Assembly: GCA_027067855.1 (NCBI GenBank)
Contig: JAMOUX010000007.1
Span: 1 to 57,755, forward strand
Direction: 5' to 3'
Source of the DNA: Candidatus Fermentibacteraceae bacterium
Lineage (GTDB): Bacteria; Fermentibacterota; Fermentibacteria; Fermentibacterales; JCC-6
Length of the DNA stretch: 57,755 bases
Below the pieces are notes generated by a model, which made no database searches, was not told where the DNA came from, and saw nothing but the letters and a program-made list of their open reading frames with translations. Every line of letters starts with the position of its first letter. Positions within the stretch are counted from its first letter, which is position 1. The translations under genes were made by a program, and so were the position numbers. This document shows, in pieces, positions 25,789 through 40,805 of the stretch.

Positions 25789-28386
25789 CTACTCCAGTAA
25801 ATTCTGGACTTTGACCATGTCAGGGTCCAGCTTGGCCGCCGCGGCCAGTTCCCTTTCAGCCTGTGAAAGTCGTCCCGTAGCCTTGTAGACTTCCGCTATG
25901 GCCAGGTGGAAACCCACTGCGGACTTGAGATTACCGGCAGCGATAGACAAACCTTTTCTGAAATGATCTTCGGCTTCGTCGTATCTCTCCAGATGAAGAC
26001 AGCACCTTCCGAGCATTTCCCTGGCCTTCATACGGAAATCGGGACTATTCAGAACCTGCTCGAACTCGGTAAGAGCTTCTCTGTACAGTCCCATTTCCAG
26101 GTAGGCTATGCCGAGGTCGTAATGCGTATTGTAATCATCGATTGGAACTGCGTTTGCAATACCTTCTTTGAATTCCTTTATTATCAAGGCCAGGGCTTTA
26201 GCAGAGTTCTTATCGAATTTGCGATCGATATCGGCGAGTATCAAGGCGATATCGGTGTAATCCTCGCTGTCGGCCAGTCCGGGCCTTATACCTTCCATGA
26301 GGGTTCTTGCCATCTCGAAACTCGGGTCCACCGAAACCGCCTTTTCCAGGGCTGCTAGGGCCTCGTGCGGACTGTCGTTCAGAAGGTAGGCGACGGCGAG
26401 CCTGTAGAAAGCCCTGGCCTGGCCTTCCGTATCCATCGCCTTCCTGATTCGTACTATTTCTTTTGCCGCACTGAGTGACTCCGGACAGATATCGAGAACT
26501 CCCTCCAGAAGTTCGAACACCATGAACTCGCGCCCATTAGCCCGGTATATGGTGCATGCTCTCAGGTAGGCGTCTATGGCACCGTAGAAATCTCCCACCT
26601 CCAGCAAGAGATTTCCCAGTTCCACGTAACCCAGACCGTCGCCCCTGGATCGGTCCAGGTTACGTCTCATGTCCTCTACCTGCAAGGAGAGAGCTTCCTG
26701 GAGTTGGCGTTTGGAGACGAAATCCATGCTAACCAATATGTCGCCGAGTTTTCGGTGTGGTTCTTTCTCCTTCTGGATTTCCAGAGCCTTGAGGACGTCG
26801 GAAGCGTCCAGGAGGCCTTCCGCTATGAAGTATTCGCCGATTCTCTTGCGTTCCAGTGGACTGAATACGTCGTCGACATCTTCATAGGTATCACCCTTGT
26901 AAGGTTCGAGAAAATCTGATTCTTCGAATTCCAGTTCTTCAAGGGCGCTCGCCGGTATTTCCTCGGGTTCGGTTTCCATCTCTTTTGCCGGTTCCCGGGG
27001 AGGTTTGGTCTTTTCTTTCGCGGACTTCTTCTCTTTCTTTAAGGAGACTTCCCGGACTTCGATCTCCGGTTTTTCCGTTCTTCTCGGAAGTTTGGTCTTC
27101 TCTTGCCCGGCTTTCTCTTTAGCAGGCTTCTTTTCTTCCTTCAATGGAGCTTCTTTGGCTTCGGCCTTCGGTTCTTTCGTTTTTTTCGGGGGCTTGACCT
27201 TCTTTTTTGCGGATTTTTCTTCTTCCTTTAAGGGGGTTTCCGCAGTCTTGACCTCCGGTCTTTCCGTTTTTTTCGAAGGTTTGGATTTCTCTTCCCCGAC
27301 CTTCTTTCCGAACCAGGCCTTCTTCTTTGCGGGCTTTTTTTCTTCCTTTAAGGGGGTTTCCGCAGTCTTGACCTCCGGTCTTTCCGTTTTTTTCGGAGGC
27401 TTGGTTTTCTCTTCCCCGGCCTTCTTCTCCTCCGGGGCAGGTTTCTCTACCTTGGGTTTCGTTTCTTTTTTCGGTTTTTTCAGAGTCGGAGGTTCGGGTT
27501 TATCCTCCCCGGTTTTTTTCACCGCCACCGATTCTTCCTTGACTTCAATATCTTTATTTTCTTTTCCGATCTTCTTTCTTCCAAACCGGAACTTTCTTTT
27601 TCGATGTATTTTTTCTTCCCCGGACTCGGATTTTTCCGAGATCGCTACTTTTTCCTCTTCCTCTTTTTCGGGTATTTCCGGTGGTTCTCCCGGTTTATTA
27701 TCCTCCACCTTTTCCGATGCCGGTTCTTTCCTGGAATCAAACGTGCTTTCGGGCGCTTCCCCGGTGATTTTTTCAGCTTGCTTGTGCCCTGCTTTCGCCT
27801 TCTTCGAGTGAAGTTTGGCTTTCAGTTTCTTACTCATGCTTTCAAGCTGGTGCAGGGTGCCGAGACCTCTTTCTCTCGCCGTTTCGATAGCATTTTCCAG
27901 GGCCTCTTCGTTCTCCACAGCCACAGCTACCTTTGCGTAGCGGATCACCCACTTGGGCTCATCAGGCTCCAAACGCATCATTGCTTCGCAGGATTGGAGC
28001 ACCGGGGGCTCCTTCAGGGATGGTTTGGATTTCAGGTACATCAGGTATTCCTGCCTGGCATCCTGCAGCTTTTCCTGCATTTCGAAGCTTTTGGCCTTGA
28101 TGAAGTGAGCAAGAGCGTAAGTAGTATCGAACCGCAATGCTTTCCTGGCTACGGAAAGGGCGGCGGAATGAAGGCCTGCATTACAGTAATACATCCCGGC
28201 CTTGCCGAAGTGTTCCAGGGCCTTATCCTTGCGATCGAGTTTTATCAGGACGTCACCCATGGTGTTGTGCGTGGATGCTTCTTCGGGAGCGTCTTTGAGC
28301 ATTTTGTTCAGAATTTTCTCGGCGCTTCCGTACTTACCTTCCTGTATCAGCTCCTGGACTCTACGTCTTTGCGCTATGTCTATCAT
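25789..28386 (-). CDS. Large TPR protein with Lys/Pro/Glu-rich repeats and MshEN-like domain
   Basis: Residues 1-190 form TPR repeats (AEKILNKMLKDAPEEASTHN and so on). About 200-490 is highly charged, probably disordered sequence rich in KKTERPEVKTAETPLKEEKK-type units. About 500-570 resembles the MshEN/GspE N-terminal domain (KRIGEYFIAEGLLDASDVLK, then LGDILVSMDFVSKRQLQEAL), a fold known to bind cyclic-di-GMP or partners in type II/IV secretion ATPases. From about 580 a second TPR array runs to the end. No signal peptide or membrane helix is visible, so it is likely a cytoplasmic scaffold. ATG 28386 overlaps the hutI stop by 4 bases. Confidence 0.75.
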   Translation of the reverse strand: MIDIAQRRRVQELIQEGKYGSAEKILNKMLKDAPEEASTHNTMGDVLIKLDRKDKALEHFGKAGMYYCNAGLHSAALSVARKALRFDTTYALAHFIKAKSFEMQEKLQDARQEYLMYLKSKPSLKEPPVLQSCEAMMRLEPDEPKWVIRYAKVAVAVENEEALENAIETARERGLGTLHQLESMSKKLKAKLHSKKAKAGHKQAEKITGEAPESTFDSRKEPASEKVEDNKPGEPPEIPEKEEEEKVAISEKSESGEEKIHRKRKFRFGRKKIGKENKDIEVKEESVAVKKTGEDKPEPPTLKKPKKETKPKVEKPAPEEKKAGEEKTKPPKKTERPEVKTAETPLKEEKKPAKKKAWFGKKVGEEKSKPSKKTERPEVKTAETPLKEEEKSAKKKVKPPKKTKEPKAEAKEAPLKEEKKPAKEKAGQEKTKLPRRTEKPEIEVREVSLKKEKKSAKEKTKPPREPAKEMETEPEEIPASALEELEFEESDFLEPYKGDTYEDVDDVFSPLERKRIGEYFIAEGLLDASDVLKALEIQKEKEPHRKLGDILVSMDFVSKRQLQEALSLQVEDMRRNLDRSRGDGLGYVELGNLLLEVGDFYGAIDAYLRACTIYRANGREFMVFELLEGVLDICPESLSAAKEIVRIRKAMDTEGQARAFYRLAVAYLLNDSPHEALAALEKAVSVDPSFEMARTLMEGIRPGLADSEDYTDIALILADIDRKFDKNSAKALALIIKEFKEGIANAVPIDDYNTHYDLGIAYLEMGLYREALTEFEQVLNSPDFRMKAREMLGRCCLHLERYDEAEDHFRKGLSIAAGNLKSAVGFHLAIAEVYKATGRLSQAERELAAAAKLDPDMVKVQNLLE
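27221..27420 (-). repeat. 120-base tandem coding repeat in the Lys-rich region
   Basis: The blocks 27221-27300 and 27341-27420 are almost identical and lie exactly 120 bases (40 codons) apart. They encode the TERPEVKTAETPLKEE units. Weaker copies flank them on both sides. The period is a multiple of three, so the frame is kept and the repeat number could vary between strains. Confidence 0.85.
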
Positions 28387-29663
28387 CGATTTCCCTCAGG
28401 TTCCGTGAAAACCTCTCCCGAAACTATCAAGTGAGCAATATCTGGTATCGCCATGTGATATGCAATACCTCTGTAGTCATTCAGGTCCCATATGATCATG
28501 TCGGCGTCCATGCCCCGGGCGAGGGAACCTTTCCGGTGCTCGAGTCCAAGGGCTGCGGCGGAATTCAATGTGGCGGCGGTCAAGGCTTCCTCGACCGTGA
28601 AACCGCAGGCACACACGGCAAGGTTCACCATGAAGGGCATTGATTCGCAGTAGCAACTTCCCGGATTAAGATCCGTGGCTATTGCCACCGCCGCTCCCGC
28701 ATCCAATAATTTTCTTCCATCGGGAAAATCTTTTCCCAGGAACAGAGCGGTTCCGGGCAGTAACGTGGCCACGGTATCGCTTGCGGCTATCCTGGAAACG
28801 TTTTCATCCGATATGGATAAAAGATGATCCGCACTCATGGCATTTACTTCCACAGCAACGGCTGCTCCCCCGGTATCGTGGAATTCGTCCGCATGGATTC
28901 TGACTCCGAAACCCATCTCGGCAGCCTTCGAGAGGTAACGCGCGGCCTGGTCCGGATCGAATACCCCCTTCTCGCAGAAAATATCCACGAAATCGGCCAG
29001 GTTCCTCTTCTTTATTTCAGGGAGAACCTCGCTGATAAGGAATTCGATGAAGTCGTCACTCCTGCCCCGGAATTCCTCGGGAATCTCGTGAGCGCCCAGG
29101 AAGGTTCTCCTGATGGTTTGAGGCCAGTTTTCCGCAAAGTTGGTTACGACATCGAGACATCTTGATTCGGTTTCCAGATCCAGACCGTATCCACTCTTGA
29201 CTTCTACGGTGGTAGTACCGTAACGAAGCATGGTCAGCAGGTGTTTCCTCAGGGTTTCTTCCAGTTGTTCCCTGGAGGCCTTCCTGGTACGAGCCACGCT
29301 ATTGAGGATTCCTCCTCCGGCTGCGGCGATTTCCTCGTAGTCGGCACCGGCAGCCCTCATCGCGAATTCATCCGCCCTGTCACCGTAGTACAACGGATGG
29401 GTGTGACAATCCACAAATCCCGGGGTAACCAGTCGACCTTCCAGATCCATAACCACGGTGGAATCCGTAAGCTTGACTACGTCATCCATGCCCTCGGGTT
29501 TTCCCAGGTACAGGATTTTTCCTTTCCCGGCAGCCACGCAGACATTCCTGGAGACGAGAAGCCTCTTTGCGTCCCCACGCCTTGCCGGTTTGCCGGAAGC
29601 GGCCGGAGTCGCCAGTTCACCTATATTTTCGAGTACCAGGTCGGCCTTGAGTCTCACGCTCAT
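28383..29663 (-). CDS. hutI: Imidazolonepropionase
   Basis: It hydrolyses imidazolone-5-propionate to N-formimino-L-glutamate in histidine degradation. It is an amidohydrolase with metal ligands His87 and His89 in VDCHTHPLYYGDRADEF. Other marks are the YGTTTVEVKSGYGLDLETE block, HADEFHDTGGAAVAVE and TDLNPGSCYCESMPFMVNLA. At 426 residues the length is typical. No hutH, hutU or hutG is in the window, so the rest of the pathway must lie elsewhere if present. It sits between rpmA and the TPR protein, overlapping both, which is an unusual context. Confidence 0.93.
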   Translation of the reverse strand: MSVRLKADLVLENIGELATPAASGKPARRGDAKRLLVSRNVCVAAGKGKILYLGKPEGMDDVVKLTDSTVVMDLEGRLVTPGFVDCHTHPLYYGDRADEFAMRAAGADYEEIAAAGGGILNSVARTRKASREQLEETLRKHLLTMLRYGTTTVEVKSGYGLDLETESRCLDVVTNFAENWPQTIRRTFLGAHEIPEEFRGRSDDFIEFLISEVLPEIKKRNLADFVDIFCEKGVFDPDQAARYLSKAAEMGFGVRIHADEFHDTGGAAVAVEVNAMSADHLLSISDENVSRIAASDTVATLLPGTALFLGKDFPDGRKLLDAGAAVAIATDLNPGSCYCESMPFMVNLAVCACGFTVEEALTAATLNSAAALGLEHRKGSLARGMDADMIIWDLNDYRGIAYHMAIPDIAHLIVSGEVFTEPEGNR

Positions 29664-29920
29664 CAGGCCTGTTCGGGTATTACTGAAGCAACCTTTCTGC
29701 CGTGCAGGGTATGGAACTTAATGCGACCGTCCACCTTTGCGAAGAGGGTGTCGTCGCCGCCCTTGCCGACGTTTATACCCGGATGTATCCTGGTGCCGCG
29801 CTGGCGTAATATTATGGTTCCGGACGTGACCAGTTCGCCGGCGGCCGCCTTGAGCCCCAGTCTTCTGCCGGCGCTGTCCCGACCGTTTCTGGAGCTACTG
29901 GAAGATTTCTTATGTGCCAT
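29663..29920 (-). CDS. rpmA: 50S ribosomal protein L27
   Basis: The sequence begins [20 protein letters not shown] and contains the conserved [25 protein letters not shown]-type core, which is decisive for bL27. At 85 residues it is of normal size and lacks the cleaved N-terminal extension of Firmicutes. ATG 29920 is preceded by GAGG at good spacing. Its usual partner rplU (L21) and the obg GTPase gene are not adjacent; instead hutI overlaps its stop by one base and the M14 peptidase gene lies 29 bases upstream. Confidence 0.96.
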
Positions 29921-29949
29921 GCCAAAAACCTCTCAAGCCTGTAGCCTGT

Positions 29950-31623
29950 TTATCTCGTTACCGCGAGTCTTGTCGTCCATTCTGTTCCGGAACTCTTGAA
30001 CACCACCGTGTATATGCCGGGTGGCAGAGGAGTACCGGAAGCGTCGGATACGTTCCAGTCGAACCCTGCGGTGCCCGGATCGGTCTGCCGGATTAAAACG
30101 GAGCGGCCGGTAATATCGTAAATCATGAGGGTACCTGCAAATCCGGTTTCCGGGAAAGTAAAGCTGCAGAAACCGGCAGTGGGATTAGGGTGTATCGAGA
30201 GTTCCCCGAACCATTCGCCCGGGTCGGGTTGAGCCGTTCCGGTCTGGTCAAGTACAAAACTCACCTCTACGCTTTTTTCAGTGCCGACCTCGACGTTTTC
30301 CACGATCTTGGAAACGTATCCGTCCGCGGAAACCTTGACGTCGTAATGACCCGCCAGCAGAGCCTTGTGGTAGTCGCCCAAAGTGACGTCGGTCCGACAG
30401 AACCTGAGTGGTTCGGAGTCGGCATCGGAGTTGTTGTGAATCCCTATTTCTATCATGGCGTCCAAGGGGTCGCCCGATCCGTTCTTAACCGTTCCCCATA
30501 TTCCGTAGGTGCTGGCGGTCAGGATTTCCAGCATCGCCGCGAAATGGGCCTCCGCCACCCCGGGCCAATCGGAAGCGTGTTTCGTATCGTGTACTTCTAT
30601 GGTATGGTCCACGGTACCGCACTCACCATAACTCCAGTCATTCACGTCGCCGTGCGTCTCATACCAGCTGGCTCCGGGATACGCGACCCAGAATTTGCCA
30701 TTGAAGTAGCTGTCGATTTTAGAATCGGCCGCATAATCCAGAGCCTGGGTATGAATCAGTCCGGAATCTTGGGGAAGCGGGCTTTTGGTGTAGTTCCAGA
30801 CCGTGTTGATGCACTTTTCTCCACCGTGCAGGGAAAGACCGGCTACGAACGGATTGATGAAATTCTTTATATCCGGCCAGTCCTGCATCGTAAGATCACG
30901 CAAGGCCTTGGTCTCTGGCTCTGAGAAGGCAGTGGAACCCCCGCCTTGTCCGGGACCCTCGTACGAGCAGTTACGGTTGAGGTCGACATCGTTTGCATTG
31001 GTTCTCTGATCGGCCACGTAACCGTCCGGGTTGAGGACCGGTATCACCCATATCTCGGCGTTATCCACAAGGTACTTGCAGGCCGAATCGCTGGAATAGT
31101 TGTCGGTCAGGGTTTTGAGGAAGACCAGGGTCGTGGTGGCCGCCGTCCACTCGTCACCATGGATGGCGCCCTGAACACGCATCTCAGGTTCTATCTCTTC
31201 CGTGTTCACGTTGTCCGAGACCACGACACATTTTATGTCCCTGTCCTTGACGCTGGTTCCTATGGTCAACTTCTTGCATATATCCGGGTGTTCGGCAACC
31301 ACTGAATCGATGGATTCGTAGATCTCCGAGAGGGTCGGGTAGGCCACTACGGGTTCCGGTTCACGTACCGGAACCGGGTTGTAACCCATGTACCTGAGCA
31401 TGGATTCCCCTTGGGCGTCTACATAGACCATGGCCCTGTCACCGTGGGCCCATTCCACCAGGATATCGTGTTTTTTAAGGTATGCAACGTCGTTCTCTCC
31501 CGATATCGAAATCATCACAGAATACTTTGGGACGTCGTAGGAAGAATCCTCCGAGGAGAACATGGAGCCCCCTGCGAAAAGAAACGTCGGAAGGGCGAAC
31601 AGGAAAATCAACATTGCTTTCAT
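29950..31623 (-). CDS. Secreted M14 zinc carboxypeptidase with Por-type C-terminal sorting domain
   Basis: The signal peptide is MKAMLIFLFALPTFLFAGG. After a propeptide-like region, an M14 catalytic domain has the zinc ligands in AIHGDEW (His and Glu) and SLHGGEK (His), substrate contacts in NPDGY and DLNRNC, and the catalytic Glu in DHTIEVHDTK. A carboxypeptidase-regulatory-like beta domain follows, and the last 85 residues read like a Por secretion (type IX) sorting tail: IHPNPTAGFCSFTF, MIYDITGRSVL and PPGIYTVVFKS. ATG 31623 is preceded by AAAGGA. The frame stays open upstream only because it crosses a tRNA gene in antisense. It is expected outside the cell. Confidence 0.88.
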   Translation of the reverse strand: MKAMLIFLFALPTFLFAGGSMFSSEDSSYDVPKYSVMISISGENDVAYLKKHDILVEWAHGDRAMVYVDAQGESMLRYMGYNPVPVREPEPVVAYPTLSEIYESIDSVVAEHPDICKKLTIGTSVKDRDIKCVVVSDNVNTEEIEPEMRVQGAIHGDEWTAATTTLVFLKTLTDNYSSDSACKYLVDNAEIWVIPVLNPDGYVADQRTNANDVDLNRNCSYEGPGQGGGSTAFSEPETKALRDLTMQDWPDIKNFINPFVAGLSLHGGEKCINTVWNYTKSPLPQDSGLIHTQALDYAADSKIDSYFNGKFWVAYPGASWYETHGDVNDWSYGECGTVDHTIEVHDTKHASDWPGVAEAHFAAMLEILTASTYGIWGTVKNGSGDPLDAMIEIGIHNNSDADSEPLRFCRTDVTLGDYHKALLAGHYDVKVSADGYVSKIVENVEVGTEKSVEVSFVLDQTGTAQPDPGEWFGELSIHPNPTAGFCSFTFPETGFAGTLMIYDITGRSVLIRQTDPGTAGFDWNVSDASGTPLPPGIYTVVFKSSGTEWTTRLAVTR

Positions 31624-31651
31624 CTTGATCCTTTCAGTTTTGTACCTCGAA

Positions 31652-31679
31652 ATATTATTCATGTATCCGAACGGGTCAA
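31652..31679 (-). promoter_or_regulatory. Probable sigma-70-type promoter for the M14-rpmA-hutI series
   Basis: On the minus strand TTGACC (31679-31674) is separated by 16 bases from TAATAT (31657-31652), placing transcription start near 31645, about 20 bases upstream of ATG 31623. It is the best promoter match at the head of the long minus-strand series, which may run through to batD. Confidence 0.6.
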
Positions 31680-31749
31680 CGAAATCGCTCCTGTGCTGTA
31701 CTCCGGGAATTTCGTTTTGTAGAATAGTCCCCTGATCGAAGGTTAGTGT

Positions 31750-31826
31750 CGGGGCGTGGCGCAGTTCGGTAGCGCACCTGCTTTGGGAGCAGGGGGCCGC
31801 CGGTTCAAATCCGGCCGCCCCGACCA
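31750..31826 (+). tRNA. tRNA-Pro (anticodon TGG), CCA encoded
   Basis: The acceptor stem CGGGGCG (31750-31756) pairs perfectly with CGCCCCG (31816-31822), followed by discriminator A and an encoded CCA. The D stem is GCGC/GCGC. The anticodon stem CCTGC/GCAGG encloses the loop TTTGGGA, so the anticodon is TGG. A TTCAAAT T-loop is present. It reads CCA and, by wobble, other proline codons. The CCA end abuts the antisense stop codon of the PHP-glycosyltransferase gene. A TAGAAT at 31720-31725 may be its -10 box. Confidence 0.97.
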
Positions 31827-34220
31827 TCAGCCGTTATTTTGGCATTCCTTCAAATTCTCCACCGGCTCCACCGGTATGTTCCAAAGGTGATCGAAAGCCT
31901 TTTCCCATGTGCGTGACGATACCGAGATTCGTGCCGCCTTCCCCATCGATGCCCTTCTGTCCGGATTTTTAGCCAGTTCCAGTATTCTGTTCGCCAGTGA
32001 AACGTGGTCGTGGCTCTTGAAAAGCAGCCCGGTCTCTCCTACCGATATTATCTCCTGGGGTCCCCCGCTGTCGCTGACGATGGCCGGCAGCCCCGAAGCC
32101 TGTGCTTCGAGTACGGAATTTCCGAAAGTGTCCGTGGTGCTGGGAAAGACGAAAATGTCCCCCGACGCGTAAGCCATGGAGAGAGATTCTCCATGAAGTT
32201 CACCGCAGAAATGGCAGCCTTTCCCGCTGAGTCGGTTCACCAGTTCTCCCAGGTACGGACCGTCGCCCACCATGTATAACTCCAGGTGGGGCATCCTTTC
32301 CCCGGCATACAGGAATGCGTCGGCTAGAACGTCCAGATCTTTCTCCCTGGAAATCCTGCCCACGTACACGAGTTTCACGGCTTCGGGATCACCGCCGTAG
32401 CGCCGGAAAAATTCATCCGATCGCCACTTGGGCGAGAATATGTCGCAATCCGTTCCCCGCGGGAAAAGTTTCATCCGTTCCCTGGGTATGCCCATTCGGG
32501 TCAGGTCGTTCATGTAATACCTGCTGGGAACCAGCACAAGATCCACGTTACTGTAGAACCATGCCGCGGCTGTTCCGGCGAATTCCCCCATTTTTCCATC
32601 CTGTATAATGTGATTAACGTGCCTGGGGTAGTCCGTGTGGTATATGCCGGCGACCGGTATGCCCAGGATCCTGGAAACTCCCAGGGCTGCGAAGCCCACG
32701 GGTCCGGGAGTGGATATATAGATAATCCCGAAGTTCTCCTCCTCCACGAAACGAAGAAGTTCCAGAAACGGTGGTATCGAAAGGAGTTTTGAACGGTAAT
32801 TCGGAACGGGAAATTCTCTTATGGGCGGAAAATTCACCACCCACCCGGGAAACGAGAGTGGCCTGCTCTGGGAAGCTATGACGGCGAGTTTCCTGCCGGA
32901 GTCCAGGGCCAGCTTGCTGAATCGCTGTATGGTTCTGGATACGCCGTTCAAATCATCGATGGTATCCGTGAACCAAACTCTTTTTTCCCTGTCCGCAAGA
33001 GAGTCGCAAAGCTCGGGCATGATCTCCGAGGCGAGCCTGGATACGGCTTCCTTTCCTTTTTTTCTGTTGAAATAAGAGACGGGATAAGGTATGCTGAGAA
33101 GCACCACCGGGATAAGGGCCGTGAAAGCCTCCATGGCGTCAAGAAGTCTTCCGTCCGTCAGCCTTTTCACCAGCAGGGAGGAATAATGCTGAAACAACCT
33201 GTTGGAAAGCATGTTGAGTATTTCGAAAGATCTTTCGTCTATTCCTTCGGCTTCCAGTTCGGGGCTTCCCGCCCTGAGATTGAGATCTTTTCCTATTTCC
33301 ACCAGGAGATCGGCCAGGACCGTTTCAAAGTCTGATTCGCCGGATCTTTTCGCCTTCTTGAGAAGCTGGTGGAATATGAAATCGGCCTTGTGCCATACCG
33401 TCGGTTCATCCGGTTCCATGGAAGGTCTGAAGAAGCGGTCCGCCGCCATGGTGGCTATCGACGGAACTTTCTTGGCGGTAAGCCTGTCCCTGTAGAAAGA
33501 GTAGGCTATGGAATATACGGAGTAGGCGGAGCGGATGGCGCTTCCGTGCCTGCCCATGGGGATGCCGTGCCCACTCGTCACGCCTTCCAGATATTCCTCC
33601 AGGTTTCGTGCGCCTTCCACCGATGTGTAGGTGAATCCCATAAAGCGACCGCAGTGATCGTCGGAGCCTCCTATGAACCCATTGAACCCCGGGTCCTTTT
33701 TTATCCTGCGTACCAGTGGAGTAATCGATTCGTTTTCCAGCTTCGACCGCGTGCCGTTGAGTGATTCCACCAACCCCATCCGTTTCACCACGTCGATGAA
33801 ATCCCGGTTTCCCAAGTCCGTCCCGGGGAAATAGAACGGGTGTGCCAACGCATTTATTATCTCCTGTTCCTCCACGAATTCCATCAGTAGGAGGAACGAG
33901 TCGCGTATGCGGGATATCTCGTCGTGTTGTTCCGGGGTTATATCGAAGAGCAGAACATGTATGGATGCCCTGGAACCGGGAAGGAAGGTGCATACCTCCT
34001 CGCTCACGAAAGTGCCGGGCAGGTGCGCTATGCTCATGGCGCCTTCTATGGTGTTCAGATCGGTGATGGTTACGAAATCCATCCCCCGCTTCACGGCCAG
34101 TTCGTAGACGAGTTCCGGAGGAGTGAAACTTTCCGGTGACTTCAGAGACCTGAGTATCCACCTGCCGGATTCGCTGGAATATTTCGAGTGTACGTGCAGA
34201 TCGCACTTTAAAACGGCCAT
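31827..34220 (-). CDS. PHP-domain / GT4 glycosyltransferase fusion
   Basis: It encodes two enzymes in one 797-residue chain. Residues 1-270 are a PHP metallophosphoesterase-like domain: CDLHVHSKYS (His9, His11), TITDLNTIEGA, NALAHPFYFP and GGSDDH. About 270-430 is helical and unassigned. From about 430 a GT-B glycosyltransferase family 4 domain follows, with YHTDYPRHVN, VLVPSRYYMNDL, the donor-site segment LVYVGRISREKDLDVLADAF and STTDTFGNSVLEAQASGLP (E-x7-E region). No signal or membrane helix is seen. It probably builds a surface glycan or glycolipid. The acceptor and the PHP substrate are unknown. The stop codon touches the tRNA-Pro gene. Confidence 0.85.
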   Translation of the reverse strand: MAVLKCDLHVHSKYSSESGRWILRSLKSPESFTPPELVYELAVKRGMDFVTITDLNTIEGAMSIAHLPGTFVSEEVCTFLPGSRASIHVLLFDITPEQHDEISRIRDSFLLLMEFVEEQEIINALAHPFYFPGTDLGNRDFIDVVKRMGLVESLNGTRSKLENESITPLVRRIKKDPGFNGFIGGSDDHCGRFMGFTYTSVEGARNLEEYLEGVTSGHGIPMGRHGSAIRSAYSVYSIAYSFYRDRLTAKKVPSIATMAADRFFRPSMEPDEPTVWHKADFIFHQLLKKAKRSGESDFETVLADLLVEIGKDLNLRAGSPELEAEGIDERSFEILNMLSNRLFQHYSSLLVKRLTDGRLLDAMEAFTALIPVVLLSIPYPVSYFNRKKGKEAVSRLASEIMPELCDSLADREKRVWFTDTIDDLNGVSRTIQRFSKLALDSGRKLAVIASQSRPLSFPGWVVNFPPIREFPVPNYRSKLLSIPPFLELLRFVEEENFGIIYISTPGPVGFAALGVSRILGIPVAGIYHTDYPRHVNHIIQDGKMGEFAGTAAAWFYSNVDLVLVPSRYYMNDLTRMGIPRERMKLFPRGTDCDIFSPKWRSDEFFRRYGGDPEAVKLVYVGRISREKDLDVLADAFLYAGERMPHLELYMVGDGPYLGELVNRLSGKGCHFCGELHGESLSMAYASGDIFVFPSTTDTFGNSVLEAQASGLPAIVSDSGGPQEIISVGETGLLFKSHDHVSLANRILELAKNPDRRASMGKAARISVSSRTWEKAFDHLWNIPVEPVENLKECQNNG

Positions 34221-34296
34221 ACCACCTCCCGTTTGGGATCAGGGGGTAATATGCACGTTTGGGAGTTCCGCTACCATGTCGGCCGTGAGCCCGTTT

Positions 34297-35298
34297 TTAC
34301 CGGGGAACGACCGTTATGCCCTGAGGTCCCTTCGTTCCCGATTGCAGGGTATCCAGGATGATCATTTCCGGCAACAGGACCGTGAAAACCATGTTTCCCT
34401 TGAAATCCGTCACGAACAGAGTATCACCGATGGCCGCGAGGCCCGTGGCGGAAGCATGTCCGGAGTTCCAGGAAGAAACCTTGCCGGATTCATCATAGAA
34501 GAACAGCTTGCCTGAAGACCAGCCGTCCCCCGCGATGAAACCGGACCCGGTTTTGATCGGCGCTCCGGGCGAACCGCCGGTACGTACGGTGCCCACCGCA
34601 TTGAAAGAGTTGGGATCGATCACTGTCACGGCTCCGTCGTTTGAATAGGTGGTGGTCACGGCATGTATCTTTCCGGTGGCCGGGAAGTACTTCATGAAAC
34701 AGACGTTATCCGGAGTTTCTATCCACGCGATTTCCTCGCCGGTCTTGGAATTACGGACGGAAACTCCTCCCGACACGGTGGTATCCGGCCAGTTGCCGTG
34801 TCCCACGAAAATCAGGTTTCCGTCGGAAGCTATGGAGGTGGGATTGGGATCCACATCGAAAAGAGTGACGTCGCCTCCCTCGGTAAGTTCCGCCCTCGCC
34901 ACCTGGGAGGAGAGCAGGAGGGTGACCCATGCATGCCCGTCGTTGTCCAGGCACATCTGGTAGGGGTTGCCGCCGGATGGCAGGTTTACGTGAAAAGATT
35001 CGGAACCGGTGCGGTTGACGTCGAAAACCCGTATCCTGGAATCGAAAGATGAAAGGACGGCTACAAGGTTCTTTTCCGGAGAGAGTATGTCCGAGGGCAC
35101 CTCCCCCGTCAGGTAGGCATTACGTACCAGTGAATCGTGATCCATGAAGTAGAGATCCACGGTATACCCCAGCCCGTTGAACCAGGCGACGGTTCTTCCG
35201 CCCGGGGTGGAAGACTCCTCCGGTGCTGCAGGCGAGGAGCAGGACATCGAAAGCGGTATCAGGGAGAAACAGGCCAGGAACAGGATGAGATTTCTCAT
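34297..35298 (-). CDS. Beta-propeller lipoprotein, BtuG-like candidate
   Basis: The lipoprotein signal MRNLILFLACFSLIPLSMSC has its lipid Cys at position 20. The mature part consists of about seven YncE-like blades, for example ILSPEKNLVAVLSSFDSRI, SGGNPYQMCLDNDGHAWVTL, SIASDGNLIFVGHGNW and YFPATGKIHAVTTTY. It starts 4 bases after the stop of the TonB-dependent receptor gene, within the same cobalamin-riboswitch transcript. In Bacteroides, the surface propeller lipoprotein BtuG is encoded next to BtuB and hands B12 to it; the architecture, size and context here match. Direct sequence homology to BtuG cannot be confirmed by eye, so no symbol is given. Confidence 0.75.
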   Translation of the reverse strand: MRNLILFLACFSLIPLSMSCSSPAAPEESSTPGGRTVAWFNGLGYTVDLYFMDHDSLVRNAYLTGEVPSDILSPEKNLVAVLSSFDSRIRVFDVNRTGSESFHVNLPSGGNPYQMCLDNDGHAWVTLLLSSQVARAELTEGGDVTLFDVDPNPTSIASDGNLIFVGHGNWPDTTVSGGVSVRNSKTGEEIAWIETPDNVCFMKYFPATGKIHAVTTTYSNDGAVTVIDPNSFNAVGTVRTGGSPGAPIKTGSGFIAGDGWSSGKLFFYDESGKVSSWNSGHASATGLAAIGDTLFVTDFKGNMVFTVLLPEMIILDTLQSGTKGPQGITVVPR

Positions 35299-35302
35299 GT
35301 GA

Positions 35303-37255
35303 TTACCTCCCGCTCCATGTGGCGGAGATTCTCAGAACCCGGCCTTTCCCCTCGAAACCGCTGGTCTCGAGGTATTGCTCGTCCAGCAGATTGTCCACCG
35401 AGCATTCCAGCAGGGGATTCCGGAGAAGGGGGAGTTTGAATCCCACTCCTGCGGAAATGACGCTGTAGGCCGGAAGCCAGGAGGTCTGAGAGTAGTTCGT
35501 GAATCTTACTCCGGTACCCCTCATGCCCGTCCAGGATTGGAACCCGCCCCCGCTGCCGTACTCCGCCCGGGCGGACCACGTGAGTCCCGGTACGTAGGGA
35601 AGTGATTTTCCGTAATTCAGGGATTCCCGGTGATCGTCCAGTACCTCCATGAGGGTGAGGTTCGCGGATACGTCCAACACGTAAGTTTTCAGGACGCCTT
35701 CCATTTCCAGTCCCCGTTTGAATACTCGTGCTACGTTTTTCGGAGTCCATTTTCCCCCTTCTCCCGGTTCCCACCTTATAAGGTCGGACGTCCATCCGAC
35801 AAAACCTGATGTATAGAGGCGTGCCGTATCGAAAAGCCTTACAGATACTGTTGCTTCGTATTCCGATGAACTTTCCGGGCGCAGGTCCGGATTACCTGCG
35901 GCGAAAGCATCCTCAGGCCAGTACAGGTCGTTCATGGTAGGTCTCCTGAACCCCCTGGATACCCTGGTTCCGATAACGAGAATGGAATCAGAAAACGGAA
36001 TGCCGGCGGACAACCCGGCTCCCAGCATATTTTTCGTTCCGGGCACCGAGTTGGCGGACGCGGATGCAGCCAGTGAAAAAAAACCGGAGTATTCGGCTCC
36101 CGTGGAGAAATTCCCCTCCAGCCTGCTCCTGGAACCGATGGCCGTGCTCCTGATTCCATCGACGTCGATTGCGGTGCCGAACTCGAAATCGAGGACTCCC
36201 ACATCTTTCTTTCCCCGGACACCAAGATCGAAACCGACCTCGTCGTGAGTGTCGTCTACCGGGATGGGAACGGTGCATGCATATTGGTGCCTACCCGTTT
36301 TCAGACCGGAATGAATTACCAAACCGCCCATGATGGCACGGTACCAGGCATCCAGGGACAAGCGCTTGCGGTAACCGTCGGATGGAACGCTCCATGAGGG
36401 ACCCTGGGTTTCCCCCCCGGCCGCCGAGCAGAGCAGGCCGTAGGATGCGAGGCTTCCGGAACCGTTGATGAGCAGGGTCGCCGAATACCCCCCGGTCTCT
36501 CCGGTCCCCCTGTTCCTCCTCAGGCTTGCAGCCAGTCTGCCGTTTTCCAGGGAGATGCCTGCGAAGAGCCATCCCGAACCGTCGTCCGCCGCGGAAGCGG
36601 AAAATTCGGGCGGATCGGATGGATGCCCCGGAATGAAATCGACAGTTCCGGTCAGTCCCCTTACCCCGTCGGGTGATCCGCAACCGCGGGAAATCCGCAT
36701 TCCCGAGAATACAAGTGGATCCATGTTGACGCCCGGAGTTCCGTCCATGGCGCTGGTGATATCGTGGCCCTGGACCGTGTAGCCGGTGTGAGCGGGATCT
36801 CCTCCCCTTAGTGAAAGGGACACCACCGGCATCGCTCCCCCGTATTCCCGTACGAATACCCCGGGGGAAAATTCCTGGAGTGCACCGAGCCCCGATACCC
36901 CGAGTCGTCGCATATTTTTGCGTCTCAAGATTGTTTTGGAGATGAAACCGCTTTCCTGAGCGTTCCTGTTCCCGAAGACCGTTATCACGATGTCGGCGAG
37001 AGGAGTGGAGGGTTTCAGAACCACCGTTCCTTCAGGCTTCACCATGCCATTCCAGGTGAAGTAACCCCGGAGTTCCAGGGTTACTTCCCGGGTTCCTGGC
37101 GGGAATTCCAATTTTCCGTTTTCGTCGGATACGCAGAGAATAACGTCGTCATGGGAGGCGATCACCCCCCCGAGAGGACTACCCGACGGATCCACCACCG
37201 TCATGCTTGTAGCAATCAGGAAGATGTCAAGGAACAAAGCGATTCCCACCTGCAT
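35303..37255 (-). CDS. btuB: TonB-dependent outer-membrane receptor, probable B12 transporter (BtuB-like)
   Basis: After a short leader, residues 18-90 form a carboxypeptidase-like carrier domain (DPSGSPLGGVIASHDD, then VTLELRGYF). A TonB-box/plug region follows (ILRRKNMRRLGVSGLGALQE, SLSLRGGDPAHTGYTVQGHD, RGLTGTVDF), and then a barrel containing the conserved RVSRGFRRPTMNDLYWPED and NPDLRPESSSEYEATV blocks. VDNLLDEQYLETSGFEGKGR marks the end. At 650 residues it is of BtuB size. The cobalamin riboswitch directly upstream gives the substrate. ATG 37255 lies 7 bases after a GGAGG that is part of a hairpin. No BtuCDF or TonB-ExbBD genes are in the window. Confidence 0.88.
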   Translation of the reverse strand: MQVGIALFLDIFLIATSMTVVDPSGSPLGGVIASHDDVILCVSDENGKLEFPPGTREVTLELRGYFTWNGMVKPEGTVVLKPSTPLADIVITVFGNRNAQESGFISKTILRRKNMRRLGVSGLGALQEFSPGVFVREYGGAMPVVSLSLRGGDPAHTGYTVQGHDITSAMDGTPGVNMDPLVFSGMRISRGCGSPDGVRGLTGTVDFIPGHPSDPPEFSASAADDGSGWLFAGISLENGRLAASLRRNRGTGETGGYSATLLINGSGSLASYGLLCSAAGGETQGPSWSVPSDGYRKRLSLDAWYRAIMGGLVIHSGLKTGRHQYACTVPIPVDDTHDEVGFDLGVRGKKDVGVLDFEFGTAIDVDGIRSTAIGSRSRLEGNFSTGAEYSGFFSLAASASANSVPGTKNMLGAGLSAGIPFSDSILVIGTRVSRGFRRPTMNDLYWPEDAFAAGNPDLRPESSSEYEATVSVRLFDTARLYTSGFVGWTSDLIRWEPGEGGKWTPKNVARVFKRGLEMEGVLKTYVLDVSANLTLMEVLDDHRESLNYGKSLPYVPGLTWSARAEYGSGGGFQSWTGMRGTGVRFTNYSQTSWLPAYSVISAGVGFKLPLLRNPLLECSVDNLLDEQYLETSGFEGKGRVLRISATWSGR

Positions 37256-37285
37256 GAAAAAACCTCCGAATTGAGCCGCGGAGGT
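37256..37285 (-). promoter_or_regulatory. Riboswitch expression platform: hairpin overlapping the ribosome binding site, followed by a T6 run
   Basis: On the minus strand ACCTCCG (37285-37279) pairs with CGGAGGT (37268-37262) across a 10-base loop, followed at once by TTTTTT and then C-ATG. The 3' arm of the stem is the GGAGG ribosome binding site for ATG 37255 at 7-base spacing. The same hairpin could therefore terminate transcription and hide the ribosome binding site. Confidence 0.75.
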
Positions 37286-37480
37286 CCGGTCCGGGCTTTC
37301 ATCCCTGTAGCGGGGACTAGTCCCAGGCCGCGGTGCAGTATCCTGACTTACGGATCAACCCCGGTTTCCCGCCTTCCCGCTCGACGCAGTGGCACAATGG
37401 GACCGGGTCCCGATTACAGTGGCGCTACCGTGGCGGATTCCAACCGCCTTCCTGCACTTTCCGCGACCGCTGCTTGTCCC
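37263..37480 (-). ncRNA. Cobalamin riboswitch (AdoCbl/B12 leader)
   Basis: Read on the minus strand, the leader has the B12-riboswitch landmarks in order: GGAAAGTGCAGGAAGG near 37460, an AATCCGCCACGG block, GCGCCACTGTAATCGGGA (37425-37408), GTGCCACTG (about 37395-37387), GCGGGAAGGCGGGAAACC, and the 3' core TAAGTCAGGATACTGC (37350-37335). An expression platform follows before ATG 37255. It fills nearly the whole gap between the flavoprotein gene and the receptor gene. High B12 should shut off the receptor and lipoprotein. Boundaries are approximate and the promoter must lie near or inside the end of the upstream gene. Confidence 0.93.
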
Positions 37481-37516
37481 GAACATAATGAGCGTGATGC
37501 GGGATGCAAAAAAGAA

Positions 37517-38827
37517 TCAGCTCTTCTTCCAGAAATCCCTGCTGAAATCCCTTCCCGCCGAGATTGCCAGCGCCTGACCTATGGAATGATCCATGTTGTT
37601 GTACCAGAAGGAACCGCATCGTCCGATGAGACGAAAACCCTGGGGCGGCTTCAATCCTGCGAGACGTCGCCGGTAATCCAGGTCGTATATCGGGTAGGTT
37701 TCCGGTACAACCATCCAATCCATGAAGAGTATCTTGGAGGGGTCCACCGCGCCGACCTTTTCCAGATCGGCCAGGAGCCTGCTCTCGAGTTTCCCGGGAT
37801 TCTTCCTGAGATCGTCGTCGCGTATGGTTATCTCGGCGGTGATGCTGTCATGATCCGTAGGGACCATGTCGGCCCTGAAATGCCTGGGAACGGTCAACCT
37901 GCTGAAAATGATGTCCTCCTGCCCGAAGTAACACCACTGGTAATCGTTGTCACGAACGGACGGGAGGGCGATATTGCAGAGCAGGGTATCCATGAACCGG
38001 AACCCCGTCCTGGGCCACAGTATGGTAAGAGGCGCGGACCAGTACACCATGTCCGAATCGAAAGTACCCATTCCTGCGGTCTTGACCCCGGTGACCCTGC
38101 CCAGGTGGGTTTCGAGCCCCGTGGCCTCGCAACCGTAAACTATCGTTCCTCCCCGCTCCAGCACCAGTCTCGCCTGTTTTTCGCAAAAGGTCTGTATTCC
38201 GCCGGATGACGGGTAGTAGAAAATGGTGGAAACGGGTTTGGGCGCCAGTATTCCCTTTACGAGGGAGAGCAGGTTGTCGGCTTTCACGTTTTTATCTATC
38301 ACCGCCCTGTTGACCCCCGCCTCGGCCCAGTCCGCGTGGAGTTCTTCCGGATCCAGCCCGGTGAATTTCTTCGTATACGCCCTGAAGAAGTAATCGTATA
38401 ATCCTCTGCCGTACCTGGATATCACGTGATCGGCAAAGGTTTCTATCTTCTCCACTTCATTCTTCCGGAAGAGATCGAACAGGCACCTGACAAGTACCGA
38501 TGATGGAAGATCCAATACCGCGTCCAACGTCAGCGGCCAGTTCCTGCGCCTGCCCCCCATGTATACGTTGCTGCGCCTTTTGATGGTGACGTGTTCATCT
38601 CCCATTATCTCCAGGAGATAGTTCTTGACTGCGTTGTCCGAAGTGTGGAACCTGTGGGGTCCTATGTCGAAGGAGAACCCGTCCCTGGTGAAGGTTCTGG
38701 CCAGACCTCCGGGGGTCCTGTACCGCTCCAGTACCGTCACATCCAGGTTTTCATCTTTTCGTGTCAGTCGTTCCGCGAGGGTGAGACCGGCTATTCCCCC
38801 TCCGACGATGACTATTCTCCTAGCCAA
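37517..38827 (-). CDS. FAD-dependent UDP-galactopyranose-mutase-like oxidoreductase
   Basis: The FAD-binding Rossmann motif IVIVGGGIAGLTLAERL is at the N-terminus. VTVLERYRTPGGLARTFTRDG and FSFDIGPHRFHT follow, as in UDP-galactopyranose mutase/protoporphyrinogen-oxidase-like flavoproteins. The C-terminal LIGRCGSFWYNNMDHSIGQAL is the second FAD contact. At 436 residues it is of usual size. The substrate is uncertain: UGM-like sugar mutases and carotenoid or porphyrin oxidases share these motifs. It overlaps the flippase-like gene upstream by 8 bases, which favours a role in envelope glycan or lipid modification. Confidence 0.75.
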   Translation of the reverse strand: MARRIVIVGGGIAGLTLAERLTRKDENLDVTVLERYRTPGGLARTFTRDGFSFDIGPHRFHTSDNAVKNYLLEIMGDEHVTIKRRSNVYMGGRRRNWPLTLDAVLDLPSSVLVRCLFDLFRKNEVEKIETFADHVISRYGRGLYDYFFRAYTKKFTGLDPEELHADWAEAGVNRAVIDKNVKADNLLSLVKGILAPKPVSTIFYYPSSGGIQTFCEKQARLVLERGGTIVYGCEATGLETHLGRVTGVKTAGMGTFDSDMVYWSAPLTILWPRTGFRFMDTLLCNIALPSVRDNDYQWCYFGQEDIIFSRLTVPRHFRADMVPTDHDSITAEITIRDDDLRKNPGKLESRLLADLEKVGAVDPSKILFMDWMVVPETYPIYDLDYRRRLAGLKPPQGFRLIGRCGSFWYNNMDHSIGQALAISAGRDFSRDFWKKS

Positions 38828-39833
38828 GGACTCCCCTTTCTTTCTTTTTTTTGAGAAAAATACCGGTGAGCATGGCCGTACCGAACAGGAGTAACAGGAC
38901 CGCCATGCATATCCATACTATATGCACGGCGAAGCCGACCTGCACTACGTCGAAAGCGGCGTTCCCTCCGGTGATTCCGACCATTGCGAATGCCGCGGTC
39001 CAGCCCGCTTCCGTGGTTCCCAGATTCAGGAGGCCGTGTATCGGCAGAGCCATCACCAGGTTCATGACACCACCGGCCATGAAGATTTTCCAGGTGGGAA
39101 TCTCCTTTACGCCGACCGCCTTGAGAATCAGGGAGAACATGTACAGTTTCGCCAGCCACACCAGCACGGAGATCGCGATCGCGGCGGCTATCTTTTTTTT
39201 CCTGCCTTCCAGTGAAGATGCTTTCAGCAGGTCGTCCATCCAGAATGTCCTGTCTCCCGGCATGAGTTTCGACAAGATCCATTTCATCGGCCTTTTCAGG
39301 AAGCCGATGACAGAGGCCAGGGAAAGTATGCCGGCTATTCCCAGGAAAACGGCGGCCGGAGCTGAAAGCGCGGATTCCATCGGAGCGAAGATCATGCAGG
39401 CGCTCATGACCATTCCAAGGGCAATCAGATCCACGAATTTGGAAAATACCATGCCGGCCGTTCCGTATCCCACCGGCACGTCGCCGAAACGACGAAACAT
39501 GGCGACGAAGGCCAGATCTCCGAGTCGGAAGGGCAACAGGTGGGCGAGGCCCACGTGCACCGAGGTGACCGCCATGGAAACACCGAAACCGCTGTTTCCG
39601 CTGACATCGAGAAAAAGCCATCTCATGGCCTTCAGAACGACGTTTGCAGTGAACAGCAGGAATGCCGCAAACAGCAGTCCCGGATCCGCATGTATAGTCA
39701 TGGCCACGATACGCCGTACCGCGGCTCCCGGCCCTCCTTCCCCCGATGTGCTTTCGAGTAGAGCCCAGGCGATGATCAGGCCCGCGATGGTTCCCAGGGT
39801 TCCGGCCAGCAACTTTTTCTTATATTCTTTCAT
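38820..39833 (-). CDS. Lysylphosphatidylglycerol-synthase-TM-like (UPF0104/AglD-type) membrane protein
   Basis: About eight membrane helices occur in 337 residues, with the family landmarks LKAMRWLFLDVSG after helix 2, VGLAHLLPFRLGDLAFVAMF, and late GLLNLGTTEAGWTAAFAMVG. Relatives include the membrane half of MprF and AglD-type proteins, linked to lipid flipping or polyprenyl-sugar handling. I chose ATG 39833 (MKEYKKKLLAGTLGTIAG), since it has AGAGGA just upstream; the open frame extends further but with non-protein-like sequence. The gene is probably co-transcribed with the flavoprotein gene. Confidence 0.8.
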   Translation of the reverse strand: MKEYKKKLLAGTLGTIAGLIIAWALLESTSGEGGPGAAVRRIVAMTIHADPGLLFAAFLLFTANVVLKAMRWLFLDVSGNSGFGVSMAVTSVHVGLAHLLPFRLGDLAFVAMFRRFGDVPVGYGTAGMVFSKFVDLIALGMVMSACMIFAPMESALSAPAAVFLGIAGILSLASVIGFLKRPMKWILSKLMPGDRTFWMDDLLKASSLEGRKKKIAAAIAISVLVWLAKLYMFSLILKAVGVKEIPTWKIFMAGGVMNLVMALPIHGLLNLGTTEAGWTAAFAMVGITGGNAAFDVVQVGFAVHIVWICMAVLLLLFGTAMLTGIFLKKKKERGVLG

Positions 39834-39858
39834 TCCTCTTTTCCTCGCAGTGGAAACG

Positions 39859-39887
39859 ATTATACCGATGGAACCGGGGGACCGGAA
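39859..39887 (-). promoter_or_regulatory. Candidate promoter for the flippase-like / flavoprotein pair
   Basis: A perfect TATAAT on the minus strand (39864-39859) lies 26 bases upstream of ATG 39833, with a weak -35 (TTCCGG, 39887-39882) 17 bases further up. It overlaps the start region of the divergent ABC ATPase gene. Confidence 0.45.
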
Positions 39888-40805
39888 ATAGACGTTCTCA
39901 TCGATGCGAGAAACGTAACGAAACGTTACCGTGCCGTGAAAGCCCTTCAGGACTTTTCTCTTACGGTGAGCCGCGGTGCCACTCTTGCGCTTCTGGGCCC
40001 CAACGGAGCGGGAAAAACGACCTTTCTCAAGGTGGTACTGGGTCTCGTAAGACATGATTCCGGCTATGTTACGCTGAAAGGCCTTTCCGTCATGTCTCCG
40101 AAAGCCCGACGTGGAGTTCGCTATCTCCAGGAGAACGTGACCTTTCCCTCCTGGATCACTCCCCTCCTCCTATTCAGGCAGGTGGAAAGAGTCAGGCGCG
40201 AATCCACGGCGGAGGATTTTACCAGGCGATGCGGCGAGCTTGGATGTGGCGACCTGTTGCGGAGAAATTTCGGCAAGATGTCCCGGGGACAGAGGCAGAG
40301 GATAGCCCTCGCCCTGACGACCTGCGGAGTTCCTGACCTGGTTCTTCTGGACGAGCCTTCCGCGGGTCTCGATCCTGCCGGAAGGATTCTCGTCAGAAAA
40401 CTCATAAGTCGCCTGGCGGCTTCGGGAACCACCGTATTGCTCAACTCGCACCTTTTGGGTGAAGTCGAAAGAGTTTGCCGCAATGCCGCGTTTATAAAAA
40501 ACGGGCGCTTGATCGATGCCGGTGACCTGGATTCTCTCTCGAAGCATACGGGATCGGTATGGGTCGAAACCGGAGTTCCCCGTAAAATGGCCGATGTCCT
40601 CTCCAGACTGGGTTACGACTGCCGGAAAGATGACGGAGGTGTAATCGTAAAGTCTTCGACCGTGCCGGATTTCAGGAAAATGGTCAGGGATGTTCTGGAT
40701 ACCGGAATACCGTTCGACGGCGTGCGGAAGAAGCGTGAAAGCCTGGAGGAAATCTTCATGAGGATCATGAAAGAAGACGGTGGGGATGTTTCTCAACGCA
40801 ATTGA
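39888..40805 (+). CDS. ABC transporter ATP-binding protein (5' end ambiguous)
   Basis: This is the ATPase of an ABC-2-type exporter. Walker A is LLGPNGAGKTTFLK, the signature is KMSRGQRQRIALAL, and Walker B is LVLLDEPSAGLDPAG, followed by a switch His in LLNSHLLGEVERVC. The conserved first strands (IDARNVTKRYRAVKALQDF) lie upstream of the only canonical start in this frame, GTG 39936, so that start would give a truncated domain. From 39888 the frame reads ATA GAC GTT. If the GGGGG run at 39876-39880 were one base longer, ATG 39868 would read straight into it as MEPGGPEIDVLIDARN. The stop overlaps the permease start. Confidence 0.82.
   Translation: MDVLIDARNVTKRYRAVKALQDFSLTVSRGATLALLGPNGAGKTTFLKVVLGLVRHDSGYVTLKGLSVMSPKARRGVRYLQENVTFPSWITPLLLFRQVERVRRESTAEDFTRRCGELGCGDLLRRNFGKMSRGQRQRIALALTTCGVPDLVLLDEPSAGLDPAGRILVRKLISRLAASGTTVLLNSHLLGEVERVCRNAAFIKNGRLIDAGDLDSLSKHTGSVWVETGVPRKMADVLSRLGYDCRKDDGGVIVKSSTVPDFRKMVRDVLDTGIPFDGVRKKRESLEEIFMRIMKEDGGDVSQRN

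Follow-up and report, generated by a model that had tools for sequence, protein, structure and literature searches.

A probable BtuB-BtuG-like cobamide uptake pair under cobalamin riboswitch control in Candidatus Fermentibacterota

Introduction

The propeller protein BtuG has femtomolar affinity for B12 and was described in the setting of gut competition. The gene for the E. coli receptor BtuB has a cobalamin riboswitch upstream of it. BtuG2 binds B12 on a face that carries negative charge, among Trp and Tyr side chains (PMC10404256); its corrinoid contacts are Trp194, Tyr239, Trp272 and Tyr316. A survey of 313 gut strains with BlastP at 1e-10 led to the statement that BtuG is exclusive to Bacteroidetes (PMC6143338). 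Among the open-access papers listed, no title or abstract opening reports BtuG outside Bacteroidota. A different kind of B12-binding protein, DUF4465/BtuJ, extends beyond Bacteroidota to several bacterial clades (PMC13398666), so that wide spread of B12-capture proteins has precedent.

The DNA considered here, termed the window, is the stretch of 57,755 nts at positions 1 to 57,755 of contig JAMOUX010000007.1, from the genome (1.86 Mb, 98.9% complete) of a Candidatus Fermentibacteraceae bacterium (GCA_027067855.1). Candidatus Fermentibacterota is an uncultured phylum of the FCB group and is not part of Bacteroidota.

Locus layout and cobalamin riboswitch

The order of transcription, on the minus strand, is cobalamin riboswitch, TonB-dependent receptor and lipoprotein. 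The aptamer (RF00174; 37315-37486, minus strand) scores 73.9 bits against a gathering threshold of 31.5 (E 2e-16), covers the full length of the model (1-189) and was also recovered in a whole-genome search. The first-pass annotation, which had claimed a clear cobalamin riboswitch here, is thereby borne out, and its bounds for the whole unit, 34297-37480, hold for the two genes; the aptamer runs slightly beyond them, to 37486. Between aptamer and receptor gene is a terminator-like hairpin (ACCTCCG...CGGAGGT followed by T6; 37257-37285, minus strand; −14.6 kcal/mol), the putative expression platform, and the ATG of the receptor gene is one base past the T6. Judged from the sequence, GGAGG in the 3′ arm of the hairpin (37263-37267) doubles as the likely Shine-Dalgarno of the receptor gene. 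A similar hairpin and T-run are present 5′ of the receptor gene in most of 22 relatives examined, a retention that fits a platform acting as terminator or sequestering the Shine-Dalgarno. The idea that the platform is unusually stable was discarded, as the z-score of the 100-base region against shuffles (−0.76) is not significant.

The receptor, BtuB-like and of 650 aa, is encoded at 35303-37255 (minus strand), and the 333-aa BtuG-like propeller lipoprotein at 34297-35298 (minus strand). The gap of 4 bases between the receptor stop and the lipoprotein gene, at 35299-35302, is as first described. Upstream of the pair are FAD oxidoreductase and flippase-like genes, and the neighbours on both strands of 28383-40055 include a PHP-glycosyltransferase, tRNA-Pro (opposite strand), an M14 carboxypeptidase with a sorting tail and an imidazolonepropionase-like gene. 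Gene order around the pair is mostly retained in the sister family (loci L117 and L119), which points to an old, stable neighbourhood.

The receptor

The receptor comprises a signal peptide, an N-domain labelled by eye as CarboxypepD-reg-like, a plug and a barrel, the last two with Pfam matches above cut-off (Plug 1.6e-5; PF00593 8e-22). By analogy, and from the receptor alignment, VITVFGNR (36965-36994, minus strand; family consensus VIxVTASR) is presumed to be the TonB box region. When a profile built from 22 orthologues was compared with PDB, the best 10 sequences were all B12 transporters, led by Bacteroides BtuB (8bmx, 3e-30, then 8p97, 8p98 and 8blw), and 8bmx, 8p97 and 8p98 are also the best PDB matches of the single sequence. 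Though TIGR01779, the NCBI BtuB equivalog, is its best family, the receptor scores 47.5 bits against a cut-off of 599.7 and is therefore termed BtuB-like, not canonical. Neither the receptor nor the lipoprotein has a Pfam match to DUF4465.

The propeller lipoprotein

An AlphaFold2 model of the lipoprotein, made with 28 orthologues, has pLDDT 92.5 and pTM 0.87, and its propeller spans about residues 36-333. In our assignment the predicted strands make up seven blades, with the C-terminal strand closing the propeller, in keeping with the earlier estimate of about seven blades. Blade 6 has three strands in the model; that of BtuG2 is reportedly reduced to two. The best Foldseek match in PDB is 8ptf, BtuG with cyanocobalamin (E 2.5e-13), and BtuG accounts for 11 of the 14 best matches (ranks 1, 3–6, 8–11, 13 and 14), rank 2 being the archaeal S-layer propeller 1l0q. 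The comparison with BtuG that had been proposed as a check of the BtuG-like reading thus leads to BtuG-cobalamin structures and not to an unrelated propeller family, with TM-scores that are moderate (0.66–0.75; rmsd 5–7 Å).

At the level of sequence the link to BtuG appears with profiles. With the single sequence, phmmer finds no BtuG match, and so the propeller falls outside the definition of Wexler 2018 (BlastP 1e-10), while the profile of the window family matches BtuG1 at 1.7e-10. In sequence profiles 1l0q outscores BtuG, and part of the signal is therefore that of the general YVTN/YncE repeat. Conserved polar positions (N41, S84 and N111-P112) were considered as proof of a corrin pocket and set aside, several of them being general positions of the YVTN repeat.

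The lipid cysteine, Cys20, is invariant in the 28 orthologues, in a relaxed lipobox (LSMSC). The Bacteroidota LES is absent after it, the sequence being C-S-S-P-A-A-P-E-E here and C-N-S-P or C-R-D in relatives. Mature propellers carry much negative charge (net −26 on average for the orthologues, −15 for the window protein), and aromatics are conserved across orthologues at the BC-loop face: W170, Y218, W260 and F299. In acidity and loop-face aromatics the family resembles BtuG2.

Conservation within Fermentibacterota

Scanning named genomes with the alignment of the propeller gave 23 loci, all of them in Candidatus Fermentibacterota (Aegiribacteria, Sabulitectum and other Fermentibacteria). 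Together with the source of the window, this agrees with the surmise of the first-pass annotation that the DNA came from a phylum apparently different from that of Bacteroides. Propeller matches occur in nearly every genome, 34 of 36 in the family and 39 of 42 in the phylum, a few of them to paralogues only. Wherever upstream DNA is present (31 loci including the window) a homologous receptor is encoded 5′ of the propeller, at a distance of −4 to about 119 bases. In 26 loci the DNA extends beyond the receptor start, and all but one of these (L061) have a riboswitch of the cobalamin clan directly upstream, RF00174 or, in one genus, RF01482. This retention of gene order and riboswitch across the phylum puts the trio of riboswitch, receptor and propeller beyond chance.

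In one Sabulitectum genome (L058, 7447-9346, minus strand) the receptor gene is broken by a frame change, due either to assembly error or to its being a pseudogene. Receptor-propeller fusions were considered for the sister family, which has open frames of about 1030 aa, and rejected: the receptor is in another frame, and these are overlapping frames in GC-rich DNA.

Relatives outside the phylum

Searched at the protein level alone, 385 genomes gave matches to the propeller profile (E ≤ 1e-12) in 32 from outside the phylum. From these, 20 high-scoring loci were picked by protein score alone. A cobalamin riboswitch is present at 16 of them and a homologous TonB receptor at 17; 15 have both and 18 at least one. 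By a rough estimate that assumes a few riboswitches per 3-Mb genome, about 1% of random 7-kb stretches would contain one. The linkage of homologues to btuB-like receptors and cobalamin riboswitches, for which the first-pass annotation had looked to related genomes, accordingly holds both within the phylum (25/26) and outside it (15/20 with both).

Most of the outside genomes are likely, though not proven, to be other than Bacteroidota. SusD, a Bacteroidota marker found among control genomes only in Bacteroides, is missing from 30 of the 32, and 16S identity among ten of them is 71–84%, which is compatible with several phylum-level lineages. Comparison of their 16S with plasmid-borne rRNA was not decisive, the best matches being merely 74–79% and to distant phyla, and no named plasmid relatives of the propeller were found.

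In hhalign (100%, E 1e-43, 321 columns) the profile of the outside lipoproteins aligns over its full length with that of the window family, and it matches BtuG1 at 5e-20 and other BtuG entries at 1e-15 to 1e-12. At the level of profiles, the outside lipoproteins connect the window family with BtuG. Some outside homologues in the same slot beside riboswitch and receptor have T9SS-type tails (FlgD_ig/Por_Secre_tail) and no lipobox, and these tails argue for a position at the cell surface.

The outside loci vary in arrangement. In L145 (470-1912, minus strand), near an RNase P RNA, the riboswitch is directly 5′ of the propeller gene with no receptor; in L144 two tandem TonB receptors are 5′ of the propeller; and in L149 propellers flank the receptor on both sides. 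Several homologues are longer than a bare propeller (L138 and L141, with frames of 562 aa; L140, L147 and L148, about 640 aa), the extra residues being some 200 before the propeller or 250–300 after it, which recalls the BtuH-extended BtuG1.

B12 pathway and a second riboswitch operon

The genome has only two TonB receptors, TonB itself with ExbB/ExbD-like genes, and one candidate for the periplasmic binding protein BtuF, in one complete BtuF-BtuD-BtuC-like cluster. It encodes ten B12-binding domains, and CbiC, the sole biosynthesis gene looked for, was not found. This combination fits a scavenger that requires B12.

There are just two cobalamin riboswitches in the genome and each drives a propeller gene. 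The second operon (L033:9394-11656; G000:C15, minus strand) encodes a DUF5074/YncE propeller with a T9SS-type tail and then a secreted protein of 275 aa. For the profile of this second propeller, BtuG makes up all of the nine best PDB sequences. Its partner, which starts DPWADASPAV...NVLGPPDP, ends in a T9SS-type tail and has no significant Pfam match apart from that tail, may be a further B12-binding protein. An AlphaFold2 model of it from four sequences (pLDDT 42) was not used. The operon is retained in no fewer than four further genomes (L063, L064, L066 and L120).

Proposed mechanism and alternatives

Quite probably, the locus encodes a riboswitch-controlled pair for outer-membrane cobamide uptake that works like BtuB-BtuG of Bacteroides. 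The BtuG-like capture pair read from the sequence at the outset is supported by the Foldseek matches to BtuG and by the linkage to receptor and riboswitch in and beyond the phylum. At low intracellular B12 the aptamer would be empty and the terminator/Shine-Dalgarno hairpin would open, with co-expression of receptor and propeller; the direction of the switch, off with B12, is taken from known riboswitches. The acidic propeller, anchored by lipid and, we infer, at the cell surface, would sit on the BtuB-like barrel as the lid of a complex, capture cobamides in a putative pocket of conserved aromatics at the loop face and pass them to the barrel. Import by the barrel would draw on TonB energy, and the single BtuF-BtuCD importer would then move the cobamides into the cell for B12-dependent enzymes.

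The main alternative to a surface lid is a propeller that faces the periplasm as an outer-membrane lipoprotein, takes B12 below the barrel and hands it to BtuF. The lipobox lacks the surface-export signal of Bacteroidota, as such a location would have it, and Fermentibacterota are not known to flip lipoproteins to their surface. However, the closest folds are those of BtuG, a surface protein, and T9SS-type tails replace the lipobox both in several same-slot outside homologues and in the paralogue of the second operon, so a periplasmic propeller is considered unlikely.

A surface lid that binds B12 also has to be weighed against a generic YncE/YVTN scaffold that merely stabilises the receptor. 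The linkage to riboswitch and receptor across lineages makes this highly improbable, as do the family aromatics of the loop face and the strong acidity, both as in BtuG, even though YVTN propellers are common, the repeat signal extends to an archaeal S-layer protein and the most conserved polar positions given above are partly those of the YVTN repeat. It is scarcely credible that the pair imports some other ligand, such as a metal chelate or haem, and is simply repressed by B12. Pairs of surface lipoprotein and TonB-dependent transporter do serve other ligands in Bacteroides, as reported for iron piracy (PMC13142918), and the receptor is under the BtuB equivalog cut-off. Against this, all ten of the top PDB sequences found by the receptor profile are B12 transporters, cobalamin itself is the ligand of the linked aptamer, and the genome combines ten B12-binding domains with the absence of CbiC.

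Significance

If it works as a B12-capturing surface pair, a riboswitch-BtuB-propeller unit that is fixed in one uncultured phylum and recurs in other lineages would be a general solution to B12 scarcity. Propeller-type B12 scavenging is probably not a speciality of Bacteroidetes, and the published exclusivity of BtuG to them looks too narrow. The present comparisons name dozens of testable proteins and would explain why a 'YncE-like' gene without known function keeps turning up next to B12 riboswitches. An evenly balanced proposition is that diderm bacteria of the FCB group and neighbouring phyla have an old, general module for propeller-assisted B12 capture, with lipid-anchored and T9SS-secreted forms and with Bacteroides BtuG as one branch; the second operon would add to it a secreted propeller and a small secreted partner (DPWAD...GPPDP), perhaps an undescribed B12-binding protein.

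Comparison with known systems

E. coli BtuB belongs to the same family as the receptor (1nqe, 6e-15 by profile), but E. coli has no propeller partner for it. The YncE/YVTN propellers, among them E. coli YncE (3vgz) and the archaeal S-layer protein (1l0q), are of the same repeat superfamily as the window propeller. To that propeller YncE matches less well than BtuG, and it is absent from the 50 Foldseek matches listed. We know of no riboswitch or BtuB context for these propellers. The B12-binding jelly-roll proteins DUF4465/BtuJ and BtuH (PMC13398666, PMC8941943, PMC12751083) are also accessory proteins of riboswitch loci, though of another fold.

The closest system is BtuB-BtuG of Bacteroides thetaiotaomicron (Wexler 2018, PMC6143338; Nat Commun 2023, PMC10404256). 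The Fermentibacterota locus differs from it in being of another phylum, in lacking the LES and similarity detectable with single sequences, and in being an operon of two genes without BtuFCD or BtuH. As the LES and the direct similarity are missing, we regard it as a variant of BtuBG and not as proven BtuG. It shares with the Bacteroides system the riboswitch, the adjacency of receptor and lipoprotein genes and an acidic seven-bladed propeller; BtuG is the best structural match of the propeller, and Bacteroides BtuB is the closest to the receptor.
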